Source: Burkholderia pyrrocinia
GTDB lineage: Bacteria; Pseudomonadota; Gammaproteobacteria; Burkholderiales; Burkholderiaceae
DNA: 64,000 nt
Assembly (NCBI RefSeq): GCF_018417535.1
Contig: NZ_CP070978.1
Span: forward strand, 62,001-126,000
Direction of reading: 5' to 3'
Shown: positions 3,393-20,485 of the stretch, piece by piece
How positions within the stretch are numbered: the first letter of the stretch is position 1
Layout of the letters: each line of letters opens with the position of its first letter
Notes under the pieces: model-generated
What the model was told of the DNA's origin: nothing
The model's input: only the letters and a program-made list of their open reading frames with translations
Database searches by the model: none
Made by a program: the position numbers and the translations under genes

Positions 3393-4286
3393 ATGGTCAA
3401 GACAACGATGAGCGGTGCACCCGATCCTGCCGCTACCGGCGACGACGAATCGTCCGGCGGCGCTTCGTCCTATCTGGTGCCGGGGCTCGAACGCGGGCTG
3501 CGAATCCTCGCCGAATTCTCGGCGCGCGAGCCTGTGCTCGGCGCGCCCGAGCTGTCGAAGCGCATCGGCATCCCGCGCACGACCACGTTCCGCCTGCTGC
3601 AGACGCTCGAGGCGCTCGGTTTCCTCGAGCGCGTGAACGGCGACCGTTATTTCCGCCTCGGCGTCGGCGTGCTGCGGCTCGGCTTCGAATACCTGAACTC
3701 GCTCGAGCTGACCGATCTCGGCGCGCCCGTGCTCGAACGGCTGCGCGATTCCACCGGCTTCTCGACGCACCTGCTGATCCGCGACCAGCGCGACGTCGTG
3801 TTCGTCGCGAAGGCGCAGAGCAATGCGTCGATGTTCGGTTCGGTGAAGGTGCATGTCGGCACGCGCTTGCCGGCGCATGCGACCGTGCACGGCCACGTGC
3901 TGATGGGCGACCTGACGCGCGACGCGCTGCGCCAGCTCTATCCGGAAAAGCGGCTCGAGCAGTTCACCGAGCGCACGCCGGGCACCGTCGACGAACTGTA
4001 CGAACGCGTGCGCCATTACGCGCGGCTCGGTTATGCGGTCAGCGAGGCGGCGTTCGAAAGCGGCATCTCGGCCGTGACCGCGCCCGTGCGCGATCATTCG
4101 GGCTCGATCGTCGCGGCGATCACGGCGACGGTGCCGCGCTCGGAGATCGGCGAGGCCGGCGAGAAGGAACGGCTCGTCGAAGCCGTGTGCGGCGCGGCGG
4201 TCGACCTGTCGCAGCGCCTGAACTACCGTCCGCTCGAAAGCGACCCGACGTTCGCGCACGCGCGCCACAAGGTCGCGATGTTCTGA
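3393..4286 (+). CDS. IclR-family transcriptional regulator (copy 1)
   Basis: 297 residues with the IclR layout: N-terminal winged helix (residues ~30-90, LSKRIGIPRTTTFRLLQTLE) and C-terminal effector-binding domain (~105-275, with HLLIRDQRDVVFVAK and RLPAHATVHGHVLM). An internal ATG at 3408 is an alternative start, and neither has a clear ribosome site. It is convergent with the porin gene and shares a bidirectional terminator with it. It is a close paralogue of the IclR protein at 9973. IclR proteins commonly repress or activate aromatic catabolism genes by binding palindromes near promoters, so it is a candidate reader of the TGTTCC-N6-GGAACA sites at 5556 and 5841. Confidence 0.92.
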   Translation: MVKTTMSGAPDPAATGDDESSGGASSYLVPGLERGLRILAEFSAREPVLGAPELSKRIGIPRTTTFRLLQTLEALGFLERVNGDRYFRLGVGVLRLGFEYLNSLELTDLGAPVLERLRDSTGFSTHLLIRDQRDVVFVAKAQSNASMFGSVKVHVGTRLPAHATVHGHVLMGDLTRDALRQLYPEKRLEQFTERTPGTVDELYERVRHYARLGYAVSEAAFESGISAVTAPVRDHSGSIVAAITATVPRSEIGEAGEKERLVEAVCGAAVDLSQRLNYRPLESDPTFAHARHKVAMF

Positions 4287-4374: not shown

Positions 4375-5454
4375 TCAGAACGAGTGGTGAATCCCGGTGA
4401 GCACGATCACCTGGTTCGCGGTGCTCGATACGCCGGCCGTGAAGAACGCGGCCTTCGCGCCGCCCGAACCGTGTTCATACAACACGTTCGCATAGAGCTG
4501 CGTGCGCTTCGACAGCGCATAGATGTCGCCGAGCTCGACCTGCGTCCAGCGGCGGCCGGCCAGCGTCGTGGTCGCCGCGCCGCCCGCGATCGTGTTGAAC
4601 GCGCTGCTGCGGTAGTTCACGCCTGCGTCATAGCTCTGGAACGTATCCGAATGGCCGTTCGACTGCATCTTCGTGCGCGTGTAGAGGCCGTGCACGAGGA
4701 AGTCGCCGAACTGGTACGACGCGCCCGCGCCGATGTTCTCGACCTTGTTCGCGATATAGCCGTTCGCGGTGTTCTGCCCCTGGAACGAAGCGATGCCCGT
4801 CTGGCCGATCAGGATCGAGCGGTCGTGTTCGTTCGAGTAGACGGCCGACGCCTTGAACGGCCCGTTCGCATAGTTCAGCGCGACGCCGACCGACTTGCCG
4901 GTCGAGAAGTTCGTCGTGTTGCCGAGCGCCAGCGTCGCCGCGGCCGAGAAGCCCGCGTAGGTCGGCGAACGGTACTTCACCGAATTGTTGTACGGCACGT
5001 TGCCGGTCGCGGCGAGTCCGTCGATGTTGCCGGGGTGGAATGCGTACCAGCTCAGCGCGAGGTAGGCCGTGCTGAGCGGATCGAGATAGTCGAACGACAG
5101 CGGCGTCTGGCGGCCGAGCGTCAGCGTGCCGTAGCGCTCCGAGCTGAGGCCGACGAATGCCGCGCGGTTCCAGATCGTGTTCGCGGTCGCGAACTGGCCG
5201 TTGTTCGTATAGAAGCCGTTTTCGAGCTGGAAGATCGCCGACAGGCCGTCGCCGAGGTCTTCCTTGCCTTTCAGGCCCCACCGATCGGGCTGCGTGTTGC
5301 CCTGGATCATCGCCCACTTCGCGTGGCCGCCGACGTTGTTCACGTACGCGATGCCCGCATCCAGGCTGCCGTACAGCACCACGCTGCTCTGTGCCCACGC
5401 GCCCGACACGGCGCCCAATCCGATCACTGCTGCTGCTACCGCATGCTTGACCAT
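4375..5454 (-). CDS. Gram-negative porin (Burkholderia OmpC-like trimeric porin)
   Basis: 359 residues, the usual size for 16-stranded beta-proteobacterial porins. A signal peptide ends at GAWAQSS and is followed by the family start SVVLYGSLDAGIAYV. The sequence alternates in beta-strand pattern throughout, with NKVENIGAGASYQFG-type motifs, and ends in Phe (IHHSF), the BAM recognition signal. It is transcribed divergently from the Rieske operon and carries its own operator with the same arms (5556-5573), so it probably supplies outer-membrane entry for the substrate of that pathway. Substrate specificity cannot be read from sequence. Confidence 0.93.
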   Translation of the reverse strand: MVKHAVAAAVIGLGAVSGAWAQSSVVLYGSLDAGIAYVNNVGGHAKWAMIQGNTQPDRWGLKGKEDLGDGLSAIFQLENGFYTNNGQFATANTIWNRAAFVGLSSERYGTLTLGRQTPLSFDYLDPLSTAYLALSWYAFHPGNIDGLAATGNVPYNNSVKYRSPTYAGFSAAATLALGNTTNFSTGKSVGVALNYANGPFKASAVYSNEHDRSILIGQTGIASFQGQNTANGYIANKVENIGAGASYQFGDFLVHGLYTRTKMQSNGHSDTFQSYDAGVNYRSSAFNTIAGGAATTTLAGRRWTQVELGDIYALSKRTQLYANVLYEHGSGGAKAAFFTAGVSSTANQVIVLTGIHHSF

Positions 5455-5555: not shown

Positions 5556-5573
5556 TGTTCCATATAAGGAACA
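5556..5573. promoter_or_regulatory. Operator TGTTCC-N6-GGAACA, porin side
   Basis: A perfect 6-bp inverted repeat, TGTTCC-ATATAA-GGAACA. It lies about 14-31 nt downstream of the start point predicted from the minus-strand promoter at 5594-5621. The same arms and spacing recur at 5841-5858. It is proposed as a binding site for one of the two IclR regulators nearby. Confidence 0.65.
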
Positions 5574-5840: not shown

Positions 5841-5858
5841 TGTTCCTGATATGGAACA
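5841..5858. promoter_or_regulatory. Operator TGTTCC-N6-GGAACA, Rieske side
   Basis: TGTTCC-TGATAT-GGAACA, with the same arms and spacer length as the site at 5556-5573. It covers about +11 to +28 of the predicted transcript, a position expected for repression. Confidence 0.65.
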
Positions 5859-5901: not shown

Positions 5902-6219
5902 ATGTCTGAACAATGGATTTGCGCCGGGCACGCCGGCGCGCTGTCGGAAGACACGCCGATCGAGTTCAAGCGGACCGACGGCGTCGAAATCGGGATCTAC
6001 CGCGTCGGCGACGACGTGTATGCGCTCGAGAACGTGTGCCCGCATGCGTACGCGCTGCTGACGCAGGGGTTCGTCGACGAAGGCACGGTCGAATGCCCGC
6101 TGCACGAGGCCGTGTTCGACATCAAGACGGGCGAATGCCTGAAGGGTCCGGGCGGACGCGCGCTGAAGCAGTACGCGGTGCGCCTCGCCGGCGAGGAAAT
6201 CCAGATCAAGGTGGAATGA
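5902..6219 (+). CDS. Rieske-type [2Fe-2S] ferredoxin
   Basis: 105 residues from the ATG at 5902, which follows an AAGGAAGG-type site; the upstream ATG at 5851 overlaps the operator. The cluster ligands are Cys46-Pro-His48 and Cys65-x2-His68 (NVCPHAY ... VECPLHE). Its size matches BphA3/CarAc-type ferredoxins that carry electrons from a reductase to a Rieske oxygenase. The matching oxygenase is at 6588 and a suitable reductase at 16638, so this is the first gene of a three-component system. It is followed after 1 nt by the recombinase-like HTH gene. Confidence 0.93.
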   Translation: MSEQWICAGHAGALSEDTPIEFKRTDGVEIGIYRVGDDVYALENVCPHAYALLTQGFVDEGTVECPLHEAVFDIKTGECLKGPGGRALKQYAVRLAGEEIQIKVE

Positions 6220-6220
6220 C

Positions 6221-6532
6221 ATGAAAGAAGCGACCGTCAACTTCAATCCCTTCCTGAAGCCGTGGGTGGCGCCTCAGCCGAACAACGTCGCCGGCAAGGG
6301 GCAGATCGAGATCCCCGGTCAGGTCGAGAACCGGATCTGGCAGAACCGCAAGGCCGAGCCGACCCAGTACGAGAACGACCTCGGCGATGCGCTCGAACGC
6401 GTGTTCGAAGCCGGCGCGACCGAGCTGGACGACGTCGTCGCGGGCCTGAACCGCATCGGCTTCCGCGCGCCGGACGGCACGCCGTGGACACCGGAGCGCT
6501 TCCGCGCCGAAATGGCCGCGCTCGCGGAATGA
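6221..6532 (+). CDS. Recombinase-like helix-turn-helix domain protein
   Basis: 103 residues beginning 1 nt after the ferredoxin stop, so translation is probably coupled. The N-terminal half is extended and Pro/Asn-rich (FNPFLKPWVAPQPNN). The C-terminal half is helical and ends in a short resolvase-like HTH (LNRIGFRAPDGTPWTPERF). Small proteins of this kind are, as far as I recall, annotated next to Rieske oxygenases. No recombinase catalytic residues are present. A role as accessory or assembly subunit of the oxygenase is more plausible than DNA recombination, but this is inference. Confidence 0.7.
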   Translation: MKEATVNFNPFLKPWVAPQPNNVAGKGQIEIPGQVENRIWQNRKAEPTQYENDLGDALERVFEAGATELDDVVAGLNRIGFRAPDGTPWTPERFRAEMAALAE

Positions 6533-6587
6533 CCGCGCCGAGCGCGTGACCCGCCGACCCGACGACAACCGCATCCGGAGCACACTG

Positions 6588-7658
6588 ATGACGTCCCCCG
6601 CACAACACGCTTCCCAACACGACCCGGTCCGTGACTATCTCGACCGCGGCATCAAGAACTACTGGTATCCCGTCGCGCCGAGCTGGCAGGTGTCGAATGC
6701 CCCCGTCGGCCTGACGCGCCTGTCCGAGCAGATCGTGCTGTGGCGCGATCACGACGGCAAGGTTCACGCACTCGAAGATCGCTGCCCGCACCGCGGCGCG
6801 CGGCTGTCGCTCGGCTGGAACCTCGGCGGCAGCATCGCCTGCTGGTATCACGGCATCGAGATCGGCGGTGACGGCACGGTCGACAAGGTGCCGGCCGTCG
6901 CGAACTGCCCGCTCGAAGGCATGAAGTGCGTGAAGTCCTATCCGGTCGAAGAGAAGGCCGGCGCGATCTTCCTGTGGTTCGGCGACGAAGCGCACGGCGA
7001 GCCGGCGCCGCTGAACCTGCCCGAGGAACTGGTCGCCGACGAGTACGGCCACTTCCTGTGCGTGTCGAACTGGAAGTGCAATTACCAGTACGCGATCGAC
7101 AACGTAATGGACCCGATGCACGGCGCGTACCTGCACGCGACGTCGCACTCGATGGCCGAAGGCGACAAGCAGGCCGACATGCGCGTGCGCAAGACGGAAA
7201 CCGGCCTGATGTTCGAGAAGATCGGCCAGCGCGACGTGAACTTCGACTGGGTCGAGCTCGGCGAAACCGGCTGCCTGTGGATGCGTCTCGCGATTCCGTA
7301 CAAGCAGAAGTTCGGCCCGGGCGGCAACTTCGGGATCATCGGCTTCGCGACGCCGGTCGACGGCGACAACTGCCAGGTCTACTTCTGGCGCACGCGCAAG
7401 GTCAGCGGCTGGCAGCGCGACGTGTGGCGCTTCATGTACCGCAACCGCCTCGAAGGGCTGCACTGGGACGTGCTCGAGCAGGACCGCTACGTCCTCGAAA
7501 GCCTCGCGCCGCAGGCGCGCGATCACGAATACCTGTACCAGCACGACGTCGGCATCACGCGCGTGCGCCGGATGCTGCGCCAGCGCGCGCAGGAACACCT
7601 GACCGCGCTTGATGCGCATCGCGCGACGCAGGCCGCTTCGGAGCCCGCGAATGGTTGA
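6588..7658 (+). CDS. Rieske non-haem iron oxygenase, alpha subunit
   Basis: 356 residues from the ATG at 6588 (CCGGAG upstream). The Rieske domain has Cys66-x-His68 and Cys85-x2-His88 (RCPHRG ... CWYHGIE). The catalytic domain shows the mononuclear iron site NVMDPMHGAYLH, with Asp175 bridging and His178/His183 as ligands. No beta-subunit gene follows, so it probably forms an alpha3 trimer like carbazole or phthalate-type oxygenases. Its partners would be the ferredoxin (5902) and the reductase (16638). It likely starts ring hydroxylation or angular attack on the pathway substrate; the substrate is unknown. It overlaps the next gene by 8 nt. Confidence 0.92.
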   Translation: MTSPAQHASQHDPVRDYLDRGIKNYWYPVAPSWQVSNAPVGLTRLSEQIVLWRDHDGKVHALEDRCPHRGARLSLGWNLGGSIACWYHGIEIGGDGTVDKVPAVANCPLEGMKCVKSYPVEEKAGAIFLWFGDEAHGEPAPLNLPEELVADEYGHFLCVSNWKCNYQYAIDNVMDPMHGAYLHATSHSMAEGDKQADMRVRKTETGLMFEKIGQRDVNFDWVELGETGCLWMRLAIPYKQKFGPGGNFGIIGFATPVDGDNCQVYFWRTRKVSGWQRDVWRFMYRNRLEGLHWDVLEQDRYVLESLAPQARDHEYLYQHDVGITRVRRMLRQRAQEHLTALDAHRATQAASEPANG

Positions 7659-8421
7659 GTCCGCTCCGGTCGTGTCGCTCGCGGGGCGCCGCGTGCTCGT
7701 CACCGGCGGCGCGCGCGGTCTCGGCGCGGCGTTCGTGAAGGCGCTCGTCGCCGCGGGCGCGCGGGTCGCATTCGGCGACGTGCTGGCCGACGAAGGCCGC
7801 GCGCTCGCCGCGCAGCTTGCGCAAGCCGGCCATGCCGCACATTTCTTCGCGCTCGACCTGGCCGATCCGGCCAGCATCGACGCATTCGTCGCGCAGGGCG
7901 CGGCGGCGCTCGGCGGCATCGACGCGCTGATCAACAACGCGGCGATCACGAACTCGGGCGGCAAGCTGTCGACGGAGCTCGACGTGTCGACGTGGGACGC
8001 CGTGATGAACGTGAACGTGCGCGGCGTGTGGCTCGTCAGCAATGCGGCGCTGCCGCACCTCGCGAAGTCGGGGCGCGGCGCGATCGTGAACCTTGCATCG
8101 GACACCGCGTTGTGGGGTGCGCCGAGGCTGCTCGCGTACGTCGCGAGCAAGGGCGCGGTGATCGCGATGACGCATGCGCAGGCGCGCGAGTTCGGCGCGC
8201 ACGGCGTGACGGTCAACGCGATCGCGCCGGGGCTGACCGAAGTCGAGGCAACCGCCTACGTGCCGGCCGAGCGTCACGCGTTCTACATGCAGGGCCGCGC
8301 GCTGACGCGCACACAGGTGCCCGACGACGTGACGGGCCCCGTGCTGTTCCTGCTGTCGGACGGCGCGCGCTTCGTGACGGGCCAACTGCTGCCGGTGAAC
8401 GGCGGCTTCGTAATGAATTGA
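7651..8421 (+). CDS. Short-chain dehydrogenase/reductase (likely dihydrodiol dehydrogenase)
   Basis: 256 residues from the ATG at 7651, which overlaps the oxygenase stop. It has the classical SDR layout: cofactor motif TGGARGLG near residue 20, NNAAI, and active-site YVASK. The C-terminus ends in GQLLPVNGGFVMN, typical of the family. Directly after a Rieske oxygenase, oxidation of a cis-dihydrodiol to a catechol-like diol with NAD+ is the natural role, though a ketone or alcohol substrate remains possible. Confidence 0.88.
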   Translation: MVESAPVVSLAGRRVLVTGGARGLGAAFVKALVAAGARVAFGDVLADEGRALAAQLAQAGHAAHFFALDLADPASIDAFVAQGAAALGGIDALINNAAITNSGGKLSTELDVSTWDAVMNVNVRGVWLVSNAALPHLAKSGRGAIVNLASDTALWGAPRLLAYVASKGAVIAMTHAQAREFGAHGVTVNAIAPGLTEVEATAYVPAERHAFYMQGRALTRTQVPDDVTGPVLFLLSDGARFVTGQLLPVNGGFVMN

Positions 8422-8450
8422 TGTTTTCACCCTTGATGAAGGAGTTGACG

Positions 8451-8978
8451 ATGGCGGACGCCGATCTCGAACGCAAGTCGTGGGACCAGCCGGAAGGCGC
8501 AAGCTTCAACGACTGGATGGAAGGGCGCGTGGCGCGCTACGCGACGCGGCGCTACGACTGGGACGCACTGAAGTTCCAGGCCGACTACGACCCGAAGTAC
8601 CGCCGTGCGCAGATGCGCTATGTCGGCACCGGCGGCACGGGCGTCGCGAAGGACGTCAACACGGTGCCGGCCGGCAACTTCACGTTCTCGACGATGGTCA
8701 TCCCGGCCGGCAACATCGGCCCGAGCCACATCCACATCGACGTCGAGGAAATCTTCTTCGTGCTGCGCGGCAAGATGAAGGTGATCTGCGAGCGCGACGG
8801 GCAGACGTGGGAAGCGATCCTCGGCGAGCGCGACCTGATCTCGGTGCCGCCCGGCGTGTATCGCACGGAAATCAACATCGGCGAGGAAGACGCGCTGATG
8901 TGCGTGATGCTCGGTTCGTCGACGCCCATCACGCCGACCTATCCGCCCGATTCGCCGCTCGCGAAGATCAAGCGTTGA
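8451..8978 (+). CDS. Cupin-domain protein
   Basis: 175 residues from the ATG at 8451, 6 nt after AAGGAG. A single cupin barrel is visible: HIHIDVEEIFFVLRG supplies the His-x-His and Glu ligands of motif 1, and the second motif (ISVPPGVYRTEIN) has lost the usual His, leaving a partial metal site. It could be a small dioxygenase, isomerase or ligand-binding protein of the pathway. It lies between the SDR and the alpha/beta hydrolase with short gaps, so it is co-transcribed. Confidence 0.8.
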   Translation: MADADLERKSWDQPEGASFNDWMEGRVARYATRRYDWDALKFQADYDPKYRRAQMRYVGTGGTGVAKDVNTVPAGNFTFSTMVIPAGNIGPSHIHIDVEEIFFVLRGKMKVICERDGQTWEAILGERDLISVPPGVYRTEINIGEEDALMCVMLGSSTPITPTYPPDSPLAKIKR

Positions 8979-8996
8979 GACGGGGCAGGTGAAGCA

Positions 8997-9893
8997 ATGA
9001 GTGTCATCGACAAACGTGAACGCGACCGCACCGCGGCGTTCGCCGCGCTGCTCGGGCAGTTTCCCGAGCAGCGTTGCGCAGCCGGCGCGGCGGGCACGAT
9101 CGGTTATCGCGAGGCCGGCGCGCAGCATGCGGGCCGCGCGCTGCCCGTCGTGCTGCTGCACGGGATCGGCTCGGGCGCCGCATCGTGGGTGCGCCAGCTC
9201 GACGCGCTCGGCGCATCGCGGCGCGTGCTCGCGTGGGATGCGCCCGGTTACGGCGTATCGACGCCCGTGCACGGCGCGTCGCCGGCCGCCGCCGATTACG
9301 CGGCGTCGCTGAACGCGTGGCTCGAGGCACTCGGCATCGAGCGCTGCGTGCTGGTCGGGCATTCGCTCGGCGCGATCGTCGCGGGCGGTCTCGCCCGCGC
9401 GATGCCCGCGCGGATCGCCGGCCTGCTGCTGGTGTCGCCCGCGGGCGGCTACGGCAGTGCGCCCGCCGAAACGCGCGAATCGCGCCGCGACGCGCGGCTC
9501 GCGATGCTCGCGGAACTTGGCCCGGCCGGGCTCGCCGAGCAGCGCAGCGGCAACATGCTGTCCGGTTTCGCGAGCGAGGATGCCCGCGCGTGGGTGCGCT
9601 GGAACATGGCGCGCATCGTGCCGGCCGGTTATGCGCAGGCCACGCATCTGCTCGCGAACGCCGATCTCGCGACCGATCTCGCCGGTTTTCGCGGCCGCAC
9701 GGCGGTGGCCGTCGGCGCGAACGACGCGATCACGCCGCCTGCCGCATGCGAGCGGATCGCCGCGGCCGCGCATGTCGGGCTGCAGGTGATTCCGCAGGCA
9801 GGCCATGCCGGTTACGTGGAAGCGCCGGCCGTTTATTCCGCACTGATCGACACGTTCTGCCGTCAGTGCGATACGCAGCGAGGGCTGGGATGA
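8997..9893 (+). CDS. Alpha/beta hydrolase, possible C-C bond (meta-cleavage product) hydrolase
   Basis: 298 residues. Nucleophile Ser123 (GHSLG), Asp243 (GANDAIT) and His270 (QAGHAGYVE) form the triad, and LHGIGSG gives the oxyanion strand. Spacing and the cap region fit the MhpC/BphD-like hydrolases that split ring-cleavage products, and an extradiol-type enzyme is encoded at 15679. Esterase activity is the main alternative. It begins 18 nt after the cupin gene. Confidence 0.85.
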   Translation: MSVIDKRERDRTAAFAALLGQFPEQRCAAGAAGTIGYREAGAQHAGRALPVVLLHGIGSGAASWVRQLDALGASRRVLAWDAPGYGVSTPVHGASPAAADYAASLNAWLEALGIERCVLVGHSLGAIVAGGLARAMPARIAGLLLVSPAGGYGSAPAETRESRRDARLAMLAELGPAGLAEQRSGNMLSGFASEDARAWVRWNMARIVPAGYAQATHLLANADLATDLAGFRGRTAVAVGANDAITPPAACERIAAAAHVGLQVIPQAGHAGYVEAPAVYSALIDTFCRQCDTQRGLG

Positions 9894-9972
9894 ACGACCC
9901 CCACGCTCGCATTTGTTCGCTGCCACCCGAGGGGGCGGATGCCGCCTTTGAGGCGGCGCGGCGGGAGGCATC

Positions 9973-10827
9973 ATGAGTGAACCGCTGCAACAAGAAGCCG
10001 AAAACGGCAAGGCCGAGGCCGGCTACGTGGTGCCGGGCCTCGAGCGCGGGCTGCGGATTCTCGCCGAGTTCTCGCCGCGCGAGCCCGTGCTGGGCGCGCC
10101 CGAGTTGTCGAAGCGGCTCGGCATTCCGCGCACGACGGTGTTCCGTCTGCTGCAGACGCTCGAGTCGCTCGGCTTCCTCGAGCGGGCGGACAAGGATCGC
10201 AACTACAAGCTTGGCATCGCCGTGCTGCGGCTCGGCTTCGAATACCTGAGCTCGCTGGAGCTGACCGATCTCGGCCTGCCGGTGATCGAGAGCCTGCGCG
10301 ACGCGACCGGCTTCACGACGCACATCGTGATCCGCGACGGCCGCGACGTCGTGTTCGTCGCGAAAGCGCAGAGCCAGGCGCCGGTGTTCAGCTCGATCCG
10401 CGTGAACGTCGGCACCCGCTTGCCCGCGCATGCGACGACGCACGGCCATGTGCTGATGGGCGACCTGTCGCTGAAGGAGCTGCGCGCGCTGTATCCGCAA
10501 GGCACGCTGAACCGGATGACGAACGCGACGCCGGAGACGGTCGATGCGCTGTACGAAGTGATCCGCGAGGATGCGCTGCGCGGCTATGGCGTCAGCAACT
10601 CGTCGTTCGAGCGCGGCATCTCGGTGGTCACGGCGCCCGTGCGCAACGAGACGCAGAAGATCGTCGCGTGCATCACGGTGACGGTGCCGCGGCCGGAGAT
10701 CGATGCGGCGCTGATCGCGGACGGGTTGATCGACAAGGTGCAGCGCGCGGCGGCGGAACTGTCGCGGCGGCTCAATTACCGCTCGGATGACGAGCACACG
10801 TTTCTTAAGGCGTTAGGACTCCGATGA
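9973..10827 (+). CDS. IclR-family transcriptional regulator (copy 2)
   Basis: 284 residues with the same domain order as the protein at 3393. Long identical stretches include VPGLERGLRILAEFS and LRLGFEYL. It lies inside the catabolic operon, after a GGGAGG site, and its stop overlaps the next SDR start (ATGA at 10824), so it is expressed with the pathway and can give autoregulation. Differences from copy 1 cluster in the effector domain (VFSSIRVNVG versus MFGSVKVHVG) and C-terminal tail, suggesting different ligands for the same operator type. Confidence 0.92.
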   Translation: MSEPLQQEAENGKAEAGYVVPGLERGLRILAEFSPREPVLGAPELSKRLGIPRTTVFRLLQTLESLGFLERADKDRNYKLGIAVLRLGFEYLSSLELTDLGLPVIESLRDATGFTTHIVIRDGRDVVFVAKAQSQAPVFSSIRVNVGTRLPAHATTHGHVLMGDLSLKELRALYPQGTLNRMTNATPETVDALYEVIREDALRGYGVSNSSFERGISVVTAPVRNETQKIVACITVTVPRPEIDAALIADGLIDKVQRAAAELSRRLNYRSDDEHTFLKALGLR

Positions 10828-11613
10828 TTGAGATCGATCTGACCGGGCAGGTTGCGGTGGTGACGGGCGGTTCGTCCGGCATCGGCCTCGCGACCGCCGA
10901 ACGGTTCCTGCAGGCCGGCGCATCGGTCGCGATTTGCGGCCGCGACAGCGACCGCCTCGCACGCGCCGCGGCGATGCTCGGCGAAAAATATCCGGGCGCG
11001 CAACTGCTCGCCGAGCGCTGCAACGTGCTCGACGAAGCCGACGTGGCCGCGTTCGCGCAAGCGGTGTCCGCCCGCTTCGGCCGTGCCGACATGCTGGTGA
11101 ACAACGCAGGCCAGGGCCGCGTGTCGACCTTCGCCGATACGACCGACGACGCGTGGCGCGAAGAGCTCGAACTGAAGTACTTCAGCATCATCCGCCCGAC
11201 GCGCGCGTTCCTGCCGCTGCTGCGCGATGCGGCCGCGCCGACGATCACCTGCGTGAACTCGCTGCTCGCGCTGCAGCCCGAGCCGCACATGGTCGCGACG
11301 TCGTCGGCACGTGCGGGCGTGCTGAGCCTCGTGAAGTCGCTCGCGACCGAACTGGCGCCGCAGCGCATCCGCGTGAACTCGATCCTGATCGGCATCGTCG
11401 AGTCCGGCCAGTGGCGCCGCCGCTACGAAGCGCAGGCGCAAGCCGGCGAAAGCTGGGAAGACTGGACGGGTGCGCTCGCGCGCAAGAAGCACATTCCGCT
11501 GAATCGCTTCGGCAAGCCCGACGAGGCCGCCTGGGCACTTTTTTATCTCGCAACGCATCTGTCGTCCTATACGACGGGCAGCCATATCGACGTTTCTGGA
11601 GGCTTTGCACGCC

Positions 11614-11621
<8 letters not shown>
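10824..11621 (+). CDS. Divergent SDR-fold protein lacking the Tyr-Lys catalytic pair
   Basis: 265 residues. The nucleotide-binding motif TGGSSGIG (residues 14-21), NNAG and active-site Ser146 are present. Where SDR enzymes carry Tyr-x3-Lys, this protein has Thr159 and Arg163 (MVATSSARAG). The rest of the fold, including the C-terminal SGSH-like end (GSHIDVSGGF), is intact, so this is not simple decay. It may bind NAD(P)(H) without classical redox catalysis, or use another acid/base. It overlaps IclR copy 2 by 4 nt and the TPP-enzyme gene by 8 nt. Confidence 0.85.
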
Positions 11622-14089
<2,468 letters not shown>

Positions 14090-14169
14090 GCGGCGCTTCG
14101 GGGAATGGAACGTCCGCCCGCGCCACGGCGAGGGCGGGTGCGCAGAGACAGATTTGTGGGACTTGTGAA

Positions 14170-15660
14170 ATGACTCCTTTCGATACGAGCCTGGTACCCG
14201 ACGGCAACATCCTGATCGGCGGCGAGTGGCGGCGCGGCCGTGGCGCGCCTTACGCGAGCATCTATCCGGCCGACCAGTCGCTGAACCTGGAAGTGTCGAC
14301 GGCGAACGCCGAAGACGCGGCCGAAGCCGTCGAAGCCGCCGATGCGGCATGGCGCCGTGCGGACTGGGCCGGGCTTAAGCCGCACCAGCGCGCGCAGGTG
14401 CTGTACCGCATCGCGGATCTGATCATGCAGCGCCACGAAGCGCTCGCGAACCTGCAGCGTCGCGACAACGGCAAGCCGATCGGCGAGACCCGCGTGCTGG
14501 TGGCGAGCGCTGCGAACACGTTCCGCTATTTCGCGGCCTGCCTCGAAACGCTCGACGAAGAACTGACGCCGTCGCGCGGCGACTACCTGACGATGAGCGT
14601 GTACGAGCCGATCGGCGTGATCGCGGCGATCACGCCGTGGAACTCGCCGATCGCGTCCGATGCGCAGAAGCTCGCGCCGGCACTCGCCGGCGGCAACGCG
14701 GTGGTGCTGAAGCCGGCCGAAGTCACGCCGCTCGTGTCGCTTGCGCTCGCACGCATCTGCGAGGAAGCCGGCGTGCCGAAGGGCGTGCTGAGCGTGCTGC
14801 CGGGCAAGGGCTCGGTGATCGGCGACGTGCTCGTGCGCCATCCGCTGGTGAAGAAGGTGTCGTTCACGGGCGGCACCGAAGTGGGCCGCGGCATCGCGCG
14901 CATCGCGGCCGAGAAGCTGATGCCCGTGTCGCTCGAACTCGGCGGCAAGTCGCCGACGATCGTGTGCGACGACGCCGATCTCGATCACGCGGTCAACGGC
15001 GTGCTGTACGGCATTTTCAGCTCGTCGGGCGAAGCGTGCATCGCGGGTTCGCGGCTGTTCGTGCAGCGCGCGGTGTACGACGAATTCATGAAGCGCCTGG
15101 TCGCGGGCGCACGCAAGCTGCGCGTGGGCGACCCGACGCGGCCCGACACGCAGATGGGGCCGCTGATCACGGCGAAGCACCGCGAATCGGTGGAGCGCTA
15201 CGTCGCGCTCGGCCTGGAAGAAGGCGGCCGGCTGCTGTGCGGCGGCGAGCGGCCGTCGGGCGACGGGCGCGAGAACGGCTTCTTCTATCAGCCGACGATA
15301 CTCGAAGGCTTGCCGAACAGCGCGCGCATCTGCCAGGAAGAAATCTTCGGGCCCGTGCTCGTCGCGATGCCGTTCGACGACGAGGCGTCGCTGATCGCGC
15401 AGGCGAACGACAGCGTGTTCGGTCTTGCCGCCGGCATCTGGACGCGCGACTACAAGCGTGCATGGCGCATCGCGCGCGCGCTCGAGACGGGCACCGTATG
15501 GATCAACACGTACAAGCTGTTCTCGATCTCCACGCCGTTCTCCGGCTGGAAGGAGAGCGGGATGGGCCGCGAGAAGGGGCGTCTCGGCATCCGCGAGTAC
15601 ATGCAGCAGAAGAGCCTCTACTGGGGTTTGAACGACGCGCCGCTGCCGTGGGCGAACTGA
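14170..15660 (+). CDS. NAD(P)-dependent aldehyde dehydrogenase
   Basis: 496 residues from the ATG at 14170. Catalytic Cys290 (GEACIAGS) and general base Glu256 (LELGGKSP) are present, along with the cofactor segment ITPWNSP and the dimerisation C-terminus. It belongs to the betaine/hydroxymuconic-semialdehyde-like branch by overall look. In this operon it likely oxidises an aldehyde released by the TPP enzyme, or a ring-cleavage semialdehyde. It starts 80 nt after the aspartate-dehydrogenase gene and ends 18 nt before the VOC dioxygenase gene. Confidence 0.93.
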   Translation: MTPFDTSLVPDGNILIGGEWRRGRGAPYASIYPADQSLNLEVSTANAEDAAEAVEAADAAWRRADWAGLKPHQRAQVLYRIADLIMQRHEALANLQRRDNGKPIGETRVLVASAANTFRYFAACLETLDEELTPSRGDYLTMSVYEPIGVIAAITPWNSPIASDAQKLAPALAGGNAVVLKPAEVTPLVSLALARICEEAGVPKGVLSVLPGKGSVIGDVLVRHPLVKKVSFTGGTEVGRGIARIAAEKLMPVSLELGGKSPTIVCDDADLDHAVNGVLYGIFSSSGEACIAGSRLFVQRAVYDEFMKRLVAGARKLRVGDPTRPDTQMGPLITAKHRESVERYVALGLEEGGRLLCGGERPSGDGRENGFFYQPTILEGLPNSARICQEEIFGPVLVAMPFDDEASLIAQANDSVFGLAAGIWTRDYKRAWRIARALETGTVWINTYKLFSISTPFSGWKESGMGREKGRLGIREYMQQKSLYWGLNDAPLPWAN

Positions 15661-15678
15661 GCGAAGGGGAATGACGCA

Positions 15679-16641
15679 ATGAGCATCTTGGGAATCGAGC
15701 AGATCACGTACGGCGTCGACGACCTCGCGACCTGCCGGCGCTTTTTCGCCGACTGGGGGCTGAAGGAAGTCGCGCACGACGACACGCGCGCGCGCTTCGA
15801 GACGATGAACGGCTGCACCGTGCTGGCGGTCAGGGCCGACGATCCGTCGCTGCCGCCGGCGTTCGAGGCCGGCCCGACGCTGCGTGAGGTCACGTGGGGC
15901 GTCGCGACGCAGGGCGAACTCGACGCGCTGCGCACGAAGCTTGCCGGCCAGCCGGGCTACTACGCGCAAGACGATGCGGTCGGCTGTATCGACCCGAACG
16001 GGATGGCGATCCGTGTCGAAATCACGCGCAAGCGCGAACTCGACATCACGGGCTCGCCGTCGAACGTGTGGGGCCAGACGCTGCGCGTCGACCAGCCGAG
16101 CCCGATCTATGCACGCGCGGAGCCGGTCGAGGTCGGGCATGTCGTGTTCTTCACGAACTGCCTCGACGCACAGGAAAAGTTCTATCACGAGCTGCTCGGC
16201 TTCGAGACGTCCGATCGCTACCCGGGCCGCGGCGCGTTCATGCGTTGCGCGCCGCACGGCGGCCATCACGACCTGTTCCTGCTCGCGCTGCCGAATGGCA
16301 AGCGCGGCCTGAACCACGTCGCGTTCACCGTGCGCGACATCCATGAAGTGTTCGGCGGCGGCATGCACATCGACCGCTGCGGCTGGGAAACGCAACTCGG
16401 CCCGGGCCGCCATCCCGTATCGTCCGCGTACTTCTGGTACTTCCAGAATCCGGCCGGCGCGCTGATCGAGTACTACGCGGACGAGGACGTCCTGACGCCC
16501 GACTGGCAGCCGCGCGAATTCGAGCCGGGCCCGACCGTGTTCGCCGAGTGGGCCGTCGACGGCGGCCTCGACGGCAACACGCGCCGGCAGAAGAACGCGA
16601 AGGCGCCGGAAGGCAAGTTCATGACGGAGCGCAAATCTTGA
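15679..16641 (+). CDS. Two-domain VOC protein, likely type I extradiol ring-cleavage dioxygenase
   Basis: 320 residues in two vicinal-oxygen-chelate domains. The metal facial triad in the C-terminal domain is His154 (VGHVVFFT), His213 (LNHVAFTV) and Glu264 (ALIEYYAD), as in BphC/CatE-type Fe(II) or Mn(II) dioxygenases. YFWYFQNPAG matches the region that carries the active-site residues near the ligand Glu. The predicted role is meta-cleavage of a catechol-like intermediate. The C-terminal 50 residues extend beyond the minimal domain. Confidence 0.85.
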   Translation: MSILGIEQITYGVDDLATCRRFFADWGLKEVAHDDTRARFETMNGCTVLAVRADDPSLPPAFEAGPTLREVTWGVATQGELDALRTKLAGQPGYYAQDDAVGCIDPNGMAIRVEITRKRELDITGSPSNVWGQTLRVDQPSPIYARAEPVEVGHVVFFTNCLDAQEKFYHELLGFETSDRYPGRGAFMRCAPHGGHHDLFLLALPNGKRGLNHVAFTVRDIHEVFGGGMHIDRCGWETQLGPGRHPVSSAYFWYFQNPAGALIEYYADEDVLTPDWQPREFEPGPTVFAEWAVDGGLDGNTRRQKNAKAPEGKFMTERKS

Positions 16642-17882
16642 CCGAAGCGAACATGCCCGCGCAGCCCGCGCCCGGCACGGTCGTCGTGATCGGCGGCGGC
16701 CAGGCCGCCGGCTGGGTGCTGAAGACGCTGCGCGCGGAAGGCTACGCGGGCCGCCTCGTGATGATCGCCGACGAGGCGCATTTGCCGTACGAACGGCCGC
16801 CGCTGTCGAAGGCCGTGCTGGCCGGCGACGCCGATATCGAATCCGTACGCGTCGTGCGTCCCGACGAATTCGACGCGCTGAACATCGAGGCGTGGCAGCC
16901 GGAACGCGCGGCATCGATCGACCGTGCGCGTCGCGTGGTGCGTACCGAAAGCGGCCGCGAGATCGAATACGACCGGCTCGTGATCGCGACCGGCGGCACG
17001 TCGCGCCGCCTGCCCGACGCGATCGTGAAGACGCCGAACCTGCATTACCTGCGCACGCTCGACGAAGCGGCCGCGCTCGGCGAGAAGCTGCGCGCCAGCC
17101 GGCGCGTGCTCGTGATCGGCGGCGGCTGGATCGGCCTCGAAGTCGCGGCCACCGCGCGCAAGCTCGGCGTCGAGGCGGTCGTGGTCGAAGGCGCGCCGCG
17201 GCTGTGCGGGCGCTCGGTGCCGCAGATCGTGTCGGATTTCCTGCTCGACCTGCATCGCGCGAACGGCGTCGACGTGCGTCTCGGCGCGGCGCTCGCGTCG
17301 CTCGATGCGCAGCCGGACGACGCATCGAAGGTGCGCGCGACGCTCGCCGACGGCACGACGATCGACGCCGATTTCGCGGTGGCCGGCATTGGCCTCGCGC
17401 TGAACGCGTCGCTCGCGAGCGATGCGGGGCTGGCCGTCGACGACGGCATCGTCGTCGACGAATTCGGCGCGACGAGCGACCCGGCGATCTTCGCGTGCGG
17501 CGACGTCGCGAACCATCACAACGGCTGGCTGAAGCGGCGCGTGCGGCTCGAATCGTGGGCCAACGCGCAGAACCAGGCGATCGCGGCCGCGAAAGCCGTG
17601 CTCGGCGTGCGCGCGCCGTACGCGGAGATTCCGTGGTTCTGGTCCGATCAGTATGACGTGAACCTGCAGATCCTCGGCGATCTGCCGGCCGATGCGCAGC
17701 TCGTCGTGCGCGGCGATCTCGCCGCGCGCCGCGCGACGCTGTTTTTCCTTGGCGGAGGGCATGTGAGAGGTGTCATCGCCGTGAACAACGCACGTGAGCT
17801 GAAGCTCGCGCGCAAGTGGATGAACCAGGGCCGGGCAGTGGATACGGAAGCCCTGGCAGACACGACCAAAGCGCTTGCCTGA
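16638..17882 (+). CDS. Ferredoxin reductase (FAD/NAD(P)H, BphA4-like)
   Basis: 414 residues if TTG at 16638 is used. It overlaps the preceding stop (TTGA) and lies 8 nt after GGAG (16626-16629). The ATG at 16653 is the alternative but has no site of its own. FAD motif IGGGQAAGW, NAD(P) motif IGGGWIGLE and the second FAD motif ACGDVANHHN define the pyridine-nucleotide disulfide-type reductases that feed Rieske ferredoxins. No reductase of another type is present, so it should pair with the ferredoxin at 5902. Confidence 0.92.
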   Translation: MTEANMPAQPAPGTVVVIGGGQAAGWVLKTLRAEGYAGRLVMIADEAHLPYERPPLSKAVLAGDADIESVRVVRPDEFDALNIEAWQPERAASIDRARRVVRTESGREIEYDRLVIATGGTSRRLPDAIVKTPNLHYLRTLDEAAALGEKLRASRRVLVIGGGWIGLEVAATARKLGVEAVVVEGAPRLCGRSVPQIVSDFLLDLHRANGVDVRLGAALASLDAQPDDASKVRATLADGTTIDADFAVAGIGLALNASLASDAGLAVDDGIVVDEFGATSDPAIFACGDVANHHNGWLKRRVRLESWANAQNQAIAAAKAVLGVRAPYAEIPWFWSDQYDVNLQILGDLPADAQLVVRGDLAARRATLFFLGGGHVRGVIAVNNARELKLARKWMNQGRAVDTEALADTTKALA

Positions 17883-17909
17883 CCGGGCAAAGACCAGGAG
17901 ACACCCCAC

Positions 17910-19310
17910 ATGAGCACTTTCGACAACGTCGTGGCCGGTCGCGCCACGATGGAAGCTGCCGCCTCCACGCCCGGCGCGATCATCGCGCGGCTCGAGCGGC
18001 TTCCCGGCAACGCGATGCAGATCCGCGCGCGTGTGCTGATCGGCGCCGCGACGTTCTTCGACGGCTTCGACGTGATCACGATCGCGGCGACGCTGCCGCT
18101 GCTGATTCACAAATGGGGGCTGTCGCCGACGCAGATCGGCATGCTGATCGCGTCCGGCGCGATCGGCCAGTTGATCGGCGCATTCCTGTTTCCCGCGCTG
18201 GCCGAGAAGCACGGCCGCGTGAAGGCGATCGCGTGGAGTTCGGCCGTGATCGGCATCACGAGCATCGCGTGCGGCTTCGCGCCGACCTTCGAAGTGTTCG
18301 TGCTGCTGCGGATCCTGCAGGGGCTCGGGCTGGGCGGCGAGTTGCCGGTTGCCGCGACGTACATCAACGAGATCACGCGCGCGCATGGCCGCGGCCGTTT
18401 CGTGCTGCTGTACGAGATCGTGTTCCCGATCGGCCTGCTGGTGTCGATGGCGCTCGGCGCGTGGCTCGTGCCGCGCTTCGGCTGGGAGATCATGTACTTC
18501 GTCGGCGGGCTGCCGCTGATCCTGTCGTTCGTGCTCACCCGTCTCGTGCCGGAATCGCCGCGCTGGCTCGCGTCGCGCGGGCGGCTCGCGGAAGCCGGGC
18601 GCGCGGTGGGCGTGTTCGAAGCGTCGGTGCGCGGCGAGCTGCCGCCGGTCACGCAGGCGGCCGCGTTCGACGAGATGGTGCGCCAGCATCCGAAGCGCAA
18701 GATGAGCGACCTGTTCAGCGCCGCGTATCGCAAGCGCACGCTCGCGGTGGCGACGCTGTGGGCGACCTGCGGGTTCATCCAGTACGGGCTGTCGACGTGG
18801 CTGCCGACGATCTACAAGAACTTCTATCACGCGCCGCTGCAGCTCGCGCTGAATCTCGCGGTGATCGGTTCGGTGATGGGCGTGCTCGGGTCGCTGGCGT
18901 CGGCGCTGCTCGTCGACAAGCTCGGCCGCAAGCCGGTGATCGTGTGGTCGTTCGTGCTGTGCGCGCTGTCGCTGGCGCTCGCGGGCATCTATCACGCGTC
19001 GTCGGTGTATGTCGTCGCGGTCTTCTGCTCGCTGTCGCTCGGGTTGATGGCGTCGGGGTTCATTACCGCGTACGTCTACACGCCGGAACAGTATCCGACG
19101 AGCATCCGCGCGTCGGGCTGCGGGCTCGGCAGCGCATGGCTGAAGATCGCGTCGTTCGTCGCGCCGATGGTCGTGCCGCACGCGATCATCGGCGGGAACC
19201 TCGCGCCGGCGTTCTACCTGATCGGCATCGTGCCGCTGATCGCGGCGGTGACCGTGCATTTCGTCGGGATCGAGACGAAGGGGAAGGTGCTCGAGGCGCT
19301 TGAAGCGTAA
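17910..19310 (+). CDS. MFS transporter, aromatic acid:H+ symporter (AAHS) type
   Basis: 466 residues with about 12 membrane segments. The first loop motif DGFDVITIAA is the DGxD signature of AAHS carriers such as PcaK and BenK. The loop 2-3 segment (EKHGR) and the loop 8-9 motif DKLGRKPV are also present. It is the last gene of the catabolic array and is followed by a terminator. It presumably imports the acidic aromatic substrate that enters through the divergent porin. Confidence 0.92.
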   Translation: MSTFDNVVAGRATMEAAASTPGAIIARLERLPGNAMQIRARVLIGAATFFDGFDVITIAATLPLLIHKWGLSPTQIGMLIASGAIGQLIGAFLFPALAEKHGRVKAIAWSSAVIGITSIACGFAPTFEVFVLLRILQGLGLGGELPVAATYINEITRAHGRGRFVLLYEIVFPIGLLVSMALGAWLVPRFGWEIMYFVGGLPLILSFVLTRLVPESPRWLASRGRLAEAGRAVGVFEASVRGELPPVTQAAAFDEMVRQHPKRKMSDLFSAAYRKRTLAVATLWATCGFIQYGLSTWLPTIYKNFYHAPLQLALNLAVIGSVMGVLGSLASALLVDKLGRKPVIVWSFVLCALSLALAGIYHASSVYVVAVFCSLSLGLMASGFITAYVYTPEQYPTSIRASGCGLGSAWLKIASFVAPMVVPHAIIGGNLAPAFYLIGIVPLIAAVTVHFVGIETKGKVLEALEA

Positions 19311-19669: not shown

Positions 19670-20473
19670 TTACTTCGGCGCACCGCTGCTGCCAGGCAGG
19701 AAACCATTCTCGAGGCGGTAGGTCGCCGTGTTGACAAGCGTTGCGCGCGCATTCGGTGTACCGGCGGCAACCGCGCACTTATCCTGCCCTGTGTTCAAAC
19801 GAATCGACTGTTCGGTCGTCGGATACTCCACTCCCTTCAGGTAGAAGCTCGGAAGGACAGTCGTGTATCGCACGTATGGAACACAGACTCGCTGCGCGGG
19901 ATCCTTCGGGCCGGCGTTGAATGGAAAGTACTCGTCGAACAAATAGGCCGATCGCGACAGGCCGCCCCATGATGCAGGAATCGCAATCTTGCCCGTCGAC
20001 GTCTTGACACCGGTACCCTTATCCGTGATCGAACCTTCGAGGGTTGCATCGCCGCCATCGGAATCCGGCGCACTGTACGCGATCTCCAGCTGATAGGTAT
20101 GTCCCGTTTGCCAAGCGAGGGCGAGGGAGCAGGAAGTTCCTGAGCCGCCGTCGGCGCCACTCGAACAGTTCGTCGCGAGCGGCGTTGTGCCGTTGTCAAA
20201 CGCACTGAAGATAACGAGATTCGATCCCTGGGTGCGGGGCTGGATGCCGGTGTAGATGGCATGGCCACCGTGCTCCGACGTTAACAGGTTCGCCCAGTAG
20301 AAGCTTCGGTTAACCGTAGTCGGAACCACTTCGGGCGTGATATCCCACGACATGCGGTCGTAACCACCCGTCGGTGGTTGCGGCGCCGACGCGGAAATGT
20401 TCGGATCGGCCTGCACGGCGAGAGAAACGAATGCGGCCAAAAAAGCTGGTATGAGTCGGATCGTAGTCTTCAT
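19670..20473 (-). CDS. Exported DUF3472-like protein
   Basis: 267 residues from the internal ATG at 20473 (MKTTIRL); the ORF opens four codons earlier. A signal peptide ends at AVQADP. The segment SFYWANLLTS, HAIYTGIQPR and NLVIFSAFDNG resembles the DUF3472 pattern (an aromatic 'Y-x-G-x-Q' strand followed by 'IFS-x-W/FD'), a domain of secreted bacterial proteins of unknown function. Several Cys pairs suggest disulfides. GC content is lower than in the catabolic operon. Insertion-sequence remnants lie on both sides, pointing to acquisition or a rearranged locus. Family assignment is tentative. Confidence 0.7.
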   Translation of the reverse strand: MKTTIRLIPAFLAAFVSLAVQADPNISASAPQPPTGGYDRMSWDITPEVVPTTVNRSFYWANLLTSEHGGHAIYTGIQPRTQGSNLVIFSAFDNGTTPLATNCSSGADGGSGTSCSLALAWQTGHTYQLEIAYSAPDSDGGDATLEGSITDKGTGVKTSTGKIAIPASWGGLSRSAYLFDEYFPFNAGPKDPAQRVCVPYVRYTTVLPSFYLKGVEYPTTEQSIRLNTGQDKCAVAAGTPNARATLVNTATYRLENGFLPGSSGAPK

Positions 20474-20485
20474 GGGTTCTCTCAA

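Follow-up and report, generated by a model that had tools for sequence, protein, structure and literature searches.

What substrate calls for a gene array that joins a three-component Rieske oxygenase and a meta-cleavage enzyme to a thiamine pyrophosphate (TPP) enzyme and an aspartate dehydrogenase (AspDH)? Such an array is found in Burkholderia pyrrocinia within a 64,000-nucleotide stretch of DNA (the window; positions 62,001 to 126,000 of contig 2 in a genome of 8.54 Mb in three contigs). It lies on the + strand and extends from the ATG of a ferredoxin gene at position 5902 to the end of a major facilitator superfamily (MFS) gene at position 19310. The initial annotation had noted that the TPP enzyme and the AspDH-like protein form an odd pair and that a substrate containing nitrogen might account for it, and this much is borne out, since such a substrate would explain AspDH. 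The same annotation considered the pathway possibly undescribed, but this is probably not so, as the gene classes match an old pathway step for step. We consider it probable that the cluster serves to take up kynurenate (4-hydroxyquinoline-2-carboxylate), a signal molecule derived from tryptophan, and to degrade it completely by the quinoline pathway of tryptophan breakdown, where both the substrate and the order of the steps are inferred.

In Pseudomonas, the kynurenate (quinoline) pathway (EC 1.14.99.2, 1.3.1.18, and 1.13.11.10) has long been known as biochemistry. After the dioxygenase and the diol dehydrogenase, it reportedly continues through a reductase, a decarboxylase, and an aldehyde dehydrogenase (ALDH), a series ascribed to studies by Hayaishi, Taniuchi, Behrman, and Dagley as well as to KEGG map00380. 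For each step recorded for this pathway, with the last ring opening supplied by us, the array holds an enzyme of the class needed. In the scheme that we propose, the ferredoxin, the reductase, and an alpha-only Rieske oxygenase would convert kynurenate to 7,8-dihydro-7,8-dihydroxykynurenate, which the first of two short-chain dehydrogenases/reductases (SDR1) would oxidize to 7,8-dihydroxykynurenate. An extradiol-type enzyme of the vicinal oxygen chelate (VOC) family would then split the C8-C8a bond to give 4,6-dihydroxypicolinate with a 3-carboxy-3-oxopropenyl side chain. When a fused bicyclic diol is cleaved beside the ring junction by meta-cleavage chemistry, the result is a side chain of the form aryl-CH=CH-CO-COOH, and SDR2, the TPP enzyme, and ALDH would together turn this into aryl-CH2CH2-COOH. 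Specifically, SDR2 would reduce the double bond of the side chain, the TPP enzyme would decarboxylate the 2-oxo acid to an aldehyde, and ALDH would yield 5-(2-carboxyethyl)-4,6-dihydroxypicolinate. In the seventh and eighth steps, a cupin protein would use O2 to break the C4-C5 bond of the 1,3-dicarbonyl form, and an alpha/beta hydrolase would release 2-oxoglutarate together with aminofumarate/iminosuccinate. Finally, AspDH would reduce iminosuccinate to L-aspartate, while IclR-family regulators acting at palindromes would control the operon and a divergent porin gene. Each of the nine reactions is balanced for C, H, N, and O, and the C10 compound kynurenate ends as C5 + C4 + CO2, although this balance proves only that the scheme is possible. 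The cluster and the Pseudomonas pathway agree in enzyme class at each step, in products, and in carbon count, whereas the oxidative opening of the pyridine ring is our own proposal and the most speculative part of the scheme.

A kynurenate substrate would explain the presence of AspDH because the ring nitrogen, the carboxyl-bearing carbon, C3, and C4 become aminofumarate/iminosuccinate when the ring is opened. The suggestion of a diketone-forming substrate, made in the initial annotation as an alternative to a nitrogen-containing one, fares less well, as no carboligase is needed and the TPP enzyme is better read as a 2-oxo acid decarboxylase. The alpha/beta hydrolase, for its part, fits better at a point that follows the second ring opening. 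A classical meta-cleavage-product hydrolase would need a BphD-type substrate, whereas splitting a fused ring yields a 2-oxo-enoate side chain. Naphthalene-type meta-cleavage by NahC and NahE similarly takes a fused-ring diol to an aryl 2-oxo-butenoate, but in the cluster the side chain would pass through a reductase, a decarboxylase, and ALDH, with no hydratase-aldolase. Indeed, no aldolase family was matched among the window proteins scanned, as expected if the decarboxylase and ALDH remove the side chain. For the final ring opening, we prefer a cupin dioxygenase followed by amide hydrolysis because both conserved genes are then used and 2-oxoglutarate is formed. A 1961 paper by Horibata et al., to judge from its title in the reference list of PMC11354673, concerns glutamic acid synthesis during kynurenate degradation by Pseudomonas extracts, which is what a 2-oxoglutarate product would give.

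The array is not a chance grouping. A search with the oxygenase alpha protein found 182 loci, and the 80 kept from these, all from the Burkholderia group, were used to count gene orders and palindromes. In the gene-order comparison suggested at the outset, all 13 genes from the ferredoxin to the reductase are kept in one order in 76 of the 80 loci. Two of the four exceptions (L014 and L045) are cut by a contig end, and a third (L067) is cut after the TPP gene and has no match for the hydrolase. In the fourth (L063), which belongs to Candidatus Burkholderia humilis, a symbiont of leaf nodules, the ferredoxin, porin, and reductase genes are missing along with the operator palindrome, and this cluster looks decayed. 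Alpha identities are 91-96% for most of the Burkholderia loci listed among these 80 and 81-87% for the rest, which are mainly from Paraburkholderia and Caballeronia. One carrier of the cluster is the laboratory strain Paraburkholderia xenovorans LB400 (L034). At an E value of 1e-60 or better, the alpha protein is found in 97 of 200 genomes of the same family (own genome counted). Comparable searches, in which the centre or own genome was counted, gave 15 of 398 genomes of the phylum and 13 of 337 genomes of a class centred on one carrier.

Outside this group the gene set is kept but shuffled, for example in Acinetobacter baumannii, Klebsiella pneumoniae, Novosphingobium (pHR1a), Pseudosulfitobacter, Nitratireductor, Paracoccus, and Cupriavidus. 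The K. pneumoniae record is labelled a plasmid, but metK and speAB adjoin the cluster, which suggests that the DNA is chromosomal. Among 21 loci picked by hand from those fetched, the cupin, hydrolase, SDR2, TPP enzyme, AspDH, and VOC enzyme are matched in every one (the VOC enzyme and the cupin at only 27-33% identity in loci of the Rhodobacterales type), alpha and SDR1 in 20, and ALDH in 19. Furthermore, AspDH, the TPP enzyme, ALDH, SDR2, the cupin, and the hydrolase occur together in several proteobacterial classes and on one Streptomyces plasmid, where AspDH is only 34% identical. In 26.8 kb from Vibrio nigripulchritudo, the cupin, hydrolase, VOC, SDR2, TPP, AspDH, and ALDH genes are present without alpha or SDR1, and this is a cut that the pathway predicts. 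In V. nigripulchritudo TUMSAT-V.nig1 (L204, 13805-15479) the TPP gene is annotated as two pieces; another record of the species gives a one-piece match. A second clade of alpha proteins (50-55% identity) has a RidA-family gene within 150 bases of alpha in eight distinct loci (L085, the same record as L141; L138-L140; L142; L193; L194; and L199), six of which carry a VanB-type reductase instead of the ferredoxin reductase, as do clusters of the Cupriavidus type. RidA proteins hydrolyze enamines and imines, and we count this neighbor in favor of the proposed route, in which it may take up iminosuccinate in related clusters.

Residues expected of the proposed activities are largely in place. Alignments held 6-33 rows per protein, a few of them duplicates, and positions kept in 93% or more of rows are called conserved; the catalytic roles of the positions in alpha, the VOC enzyme, the hydrolase, the TPP enzyme, ALDH, and AspDH are those established for their families. 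The oxygenase has Rieske and VanA_C domains and conserves C66, H68, C85, and H88 of the Rieske CxH...CxxH motif as well as D175, H178, H183, and D299, which stand for the 2-His-1-carboxylate iron site and its bridging Asp (33 rows, two from one record). With its Rieske and iron-site motifs and its separate ferredoxin and reductase genes, it has the features of an alpha-only three-component Rieske non-heme iron oxygenase, and no beta-subunit family was matched among the window frames and proteins scanned, in agreement with the initial annotation. The nearest models for the ferredoxin and the reductase are those of AndAcAdAbAa and HcaCD, but all scores lie under the equivalog cut-offs (88.8 versus 150 bits for the ferredoxin and 367 versus 650 bits for the reductase against anthranilate 1,2-dioxygenase, AndA), and the alpha protein is instead of the VanA_C type without a beta subunit. 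SDR1 conserves a canonical Y163xxxK167. The HTH_62 gene precedes alpha in annotated clusters elsewhere and accompanies the oxygenase in most clusters examined; its product, of a "recombinase-like" family, is a candidate oxygenase subunit or regulator.

The 26-row alignment of the VOC enzyme conserves H154, H213, E264, H196/H197, H245, and Y254, and by this test of its 2-His-1-Glu ligands and second-sphere His/Tyr residues it is a type I extradiol dioxygenase. Assignment to HpaD, XylE, or BphC was rejected on NCBIfam equivalog scores of 65.6 versus 321, 55 versus 320, and 43 versus 366 bits, respectively. E52 of the TPP enzyme, C288 and E254 of ALDH, and the S123, D243, and H270 triad of the hydrolase are all conserved, as are H89, H91, and E95 of the cupin (numbered from position 8463). 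SDR2 is unusual in that M156 stands in for the catalytic Tyr (one row has Leu) and S160 for the Lys throughout a 32-row alignment, whose members share a motif resembling NSLLA.QPE.HM..TS.AR; with the YxxxK dyad thus absent, a classical SDR carbonyl reductase was rejected. The structure PDB 3lf1 (UniProt Q9HYA2), presumably from Pseudomonas aeruginosa, likewise has Met and Ser in place of YxxxK.

The protein called aspartate-dehydrogenase-like in the initial annotation scores above the NCBIfam equivalog cut-off for AspDH (559.3 versus 479 bits) and conserves N222 and H224. An AspDH of K. pneumoniae is described by Li et al. (2017, PMC5554190) as aminating oxaloacetate at 26.5 U/mg with NADPH, and the published primers encode protein ends (MKKVMLIGY..., ...CRELA) that agree with those of the AspDH in the Klebsiella cluster. 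The published activity is that of the Klebsiella cluster member, and the same activity is predicted for the window's AspDH. An R. eutropha enzyme in the same report had low activity (1.2 U/mg, crude), and its published ends are found in the AspDH proteins of Cupriavidus campinensis (L087) and of similar clusters (L131-L137). On mucin, three consecutive genes of A. baumannii ATCC 17978 (A1S_0956-0958) rise 2.18-, 2.44-, and 2.42-fold (PMC5757984). Their products are named AspDH, betaine-aldehyde dehydrogenase, and acetolactate synthase, and going by name and order, these would be the AspDH, ALDH, and TPP genes of the A. baumannii locus L082. A different AspDH, about 45% identical, is encoded on Rhodobacterales plasmids (L177, 9439-22745; L179, 10252-15254; L180, 9304-15317; L181, 10861-24146) beside genes for a 3-hydroxyanthranilate 3,4-dioxygenase, a DapA-like aldolase, and a semialdehyde dehydrogenase, along with kynU in L177 and L181. 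Perhaps these plasmids carry another kynurenine-derived route that ends in AspDH.

The control region is also conserved. Two palindromes of the form TGTTCC-N6-GGAACA lie between the porin and ferredoxin genes, and these are the only strict copies in the genome. The strict form is present in 23 of 26 Burkholderia genomes, of which one (G854) has sites elsewhere as well, whereas a reversed control pattern occurs in none of the 26. The core GTTCC-N6-GGAAC, whose inner six bases vary, is found upstream of the ferredoxin gene in 79 of the 80 loci, L063 being the exception, and precedes the alpha match by 686-777 bases. On the porin side, 29 loci have a further copy, 28 of which are among the 29 nearest, and only a few of the more distant clusters have the palindrome at all. 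The gene for the upstream regulator (IclR1) adjoins the porin gene in most of the 80 loci, and both belong to the conserved block. IclR1 is 65% identical to IclR2, which is encoded within the operon. IclR control, claimed initially, is likely, with the palindromes as candidate operators of the two regulators, although this pairing is our inference.

Several observations weigh against kynurenate. The link is chemical and comparative, and the activities on kynurenate are predicted. There is no kynurenine-pathway gene in the cluster, and the kynA gene of this genome, encoding tryptophan 2,3-dioxygenase (TDO), is on another replicon. Among 80 alpha-positive genomes, kynA is near the cluster in one (G665, 9-10 kb off with unrelated genes between), which is about the chance level, and such distances are not visible in fragmented genomes. 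TDO itself is found in 71 of these 80 genomes versus 38 of 41 alpha-negative genomes of 4 Mb or more, and hence its presence is uninformative about the cluster (among 80 alpha-negative relatives, 41 were matched, 40 of them above the cut-off). The two genomes whose clusters are nearest to that of Klebsiella (G625 and G733) are without TDO. In addition, AspDH genes lie outside such clusters in Phaeobacter and Rhizobium, and an SDR2-like gene (51%) sits with a hydrolase gene outside such a cluster on Novosphingobium pCAR3. The cupin is without the usual third histidine, and its structure model is only fair (mean pLDDT, a per-residue model confidence, of 68.6), with matches to cupins of many functions.

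Other readings were also considered. The same lower route could serve a relative of kynurenate that enters by way of 7,8-dihydroxykynurenate, such as xanthurenate, quinaldate, or another 4-hydroxyquinoline-2-carboxylate. The lower module of V. nigripulchritudo, which stands without Rieske genes, counts in favor of such a substrate, and a monooxygenase of the FAD_binding_3 family (56-69% identical between loci) lies beside related clusters in seven distinct loci (L085, L144, L147-L150, and L174), with a sulfatase in three (L147, L148, and L150). Furthermore, quinaldate 4-oxidation would need an enzyme of the xanthine dehydrogenase family, and genes of this family accompany one Caballeronia plasmid copy. 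This copy, on pNK84 of Caballeronia sp. NK8 (L088, 14326-23557), is a second partial set that also includes an SRPBCC protein and is possibly a quinaldate entry. However, none of these extra genes is within the window's cluster, and a Rieske dioxygenase with a diol dehydrogenase suits the unsubstituted benzene half of kynurenate, whereas xanthurenate would need a monooxygenase. A close congener ranks after kynurenate as a substrate, and we regard it as rather unlikely. Less likely still is an ordinary aromatic acid pathway for some other substrate, in which AspDH would have its role in NAD or nitrogen metabolism, with a TPP enzyme that is a carboligase or cleaves a diketone. AspDH (NadX) does act in NAD synthesis, and the protein matches NCBIfam TIGR03855 under the cut-off; the solved TPP enzymes closest in sequence are acetolactate synthases, and Variovorax SRS16 has a relative of the TPP enzyme in a cluster that looks unrelated. 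Yet a housekeeping role would not require AspDH, the TPP enzyme, ALDH, SDR2, the cupin, and the hydrolase to travel together across classes, and the window's cluster gave no match to an aldolase or coenzyme A (CoA) gene belonging to a classical route.

A further alternative concerns only the last steps on the way from kynurenate. The ring might be opened hydrolytically, in which case the hydrolase would produce glutarate and iminosuccinate from the dihydroxypicolinate, and the cupin would act as a tautomerase or binding protein. These reactions balance too, the missing third histidine of the cupin would be accommodated, and CoA-transferase and acyl-CoA dehydrogenase genes lie downstream in Pseudosulfitobacter, but these two genes score under the glutarate-pathway cut-offs (275 versus 750 and 228 versus 470 bits). 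Moreover, a well conserved cupin would be left without a catalytic step, and glutamate would not be formed directly. The cupin retains H89, H91, and E95, and its two top sequence matches are a quercetinase (QueD, the best match in the PDB, at E 2.8e-4) and an oxalate oxidase, both weak. We consider hydrolytic opening unlikely, if less so than a different substrate, and retain oxidative opening in the proposed kynurenate route.

It is tempting to go further and speculate that the array supplies the missing genes of an orphan pathway, that its cupin is of a new kind and uses O2 to split a heteroaromatic 1,3-dicarbonyl, that AspDH (or RidA) takes iminosuccinate, and that the HTH_62 protein is an accessory subunit of the oxygenase. 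This combined proposal is possible but doubtful as a whole. In the open-access literature we found no paper that links ring cleavage of kynurenate to genes, whether these or others, with most subscription journals outside the search, and the value of the present findings is that they join a very conserved gene set to an old pathway for which this literature offered no gene assignment. A close parallel is riboflavin/lumichrome catabolism (Lum, PMC12746152), in which Rieske, extradiol, and thiamin-dependent enzymes likewise share one N-heterocycle pathway. In contrast to the cluster, its thiamin enzyme (LumK/LumL) decarboxylates a heterocycle and a xanthine oxidase acts, and the term "aspartate dehydrogenase" is absent from the paper's text.

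If the assignment is true, three or more tryptophan-catabolism activities known for decades would gain genes together, and AspDH, often filed under NAD synthesis, would gain a catabolic role. New chemistry would be predicted for the cupin and for an SDR without the usual catalytic pair. Kynurenate is bioactive in mammals and is also made by microbes (PMC11354673). A conserved means of consuming it in bacteria of soils, plants, and the clinic would matter for the chemistry of the rhizosphere and of host-microbe relations, and strains of Burkholderia, Klebsiella, and Acinetobacter would hold a ready route to consume a neuro- and immunoactive metabolite of the host.

Table 1. Features of the kynurenate candidate cluster and its control region (window positions)
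Feature	Position	Strand	Basis or remark
IclR-family regulator 1 (PcaR/PcaU/PobR-like, below cut-off)	3393..4286	+	Pfam IclR_C, HTH_IclR
Gram-negative porin, divergent from operon	4375..5454	-	Pfam Porin_4; neighbor conserved across loci
Palindrome TGTTCC-N6-GGAACA, porin side	5556..5573		Motif search
Palindrome TGTTCC-N6-GGAACA, ferredoxin side, likely IclR operator	5841..5858		Motif search
Rieske-type ferredoxin	5902..6219	+	NCBIfam AndAb best, below cut-off
103-aa HTH_62 protein, possible accessory subunit	6221..6532	+	Pfam HTH_62, 104.8 bits
Rieske oxygenase alpha, proposed kynurenate 7,8-dioxygenase	6588..7658	+	Rieske + VanA_C
SDR1, proposed cis-dihydrodiol dehydrogenase	7651 (ATG also at 7612)..8421	+	Pfam adh_short
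Cupin, proposed dihydroxypicolinate-ring-opening dioxygenase	8451..8978	+	Pfam Cupin_2
Alpha/beta hydrolase, proposed amide (or C-C) hydrolase	8997..9893	+	Pfam Abhydrolase_6
IclR-family regulator 2	9973..10827	+	Domain scan
SDR2 lacking YxxxK, proposed reductase of the side-chain C=C bond	10824..11621	+	Residue alignment
TPP enzyme, proposed 2-oxo acid decarboxylase	11614..13281	+	Three TPP domains; PRK07064, 975 versus 495 bits
AspDH (L-aspartate dehydrogenase), proposed iminosuccinate reductase	13274..14089	+	NCBIfam equivalog above cut-off
ALDH	14170..15660	+	Pfam Aldedh; scan began at 14176, ATG two codons upstream
VOC extradiol-type dioxygenase, proposed 7,8-dihydroxykynurenate 8,8a-dioxygenase	15679..16641	+	Pfam Glyoxalase
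Ferredoxin reductase (HcaD/AndAa-like)	16653..17882	+	Pyr_redox_2 + Reductase_C; below equivalog cut-offs
MFS transporter, likely substrate uptake	17910..19310	+	Domain scan

The map in Table 1 is based on reading frames, composition, and Pfam and NCBIfam domain scans, with start codons checked. It confirms a three-component Rieske and meta-cleavage array in which every gene listed by the initial annotation is present on one strand. To that list it adds the HTH_62 gene, the upstream IclR gene, the divergent porin gene, the two palindromes, and a second SDR where only one had been mentioned. A gene for a DUF3472 protein lies directly downstream (19670-20485, - strand), without an evident link to the cluster. 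The aromatic acid/H+ symporter identity initially given to the MFS carrier is only likely, for this subfamily is the best model but is matched at 223 versus a cut-off of 418 bits. Several adjacent genes share overlaps of a few bases, in the manner of an operon.

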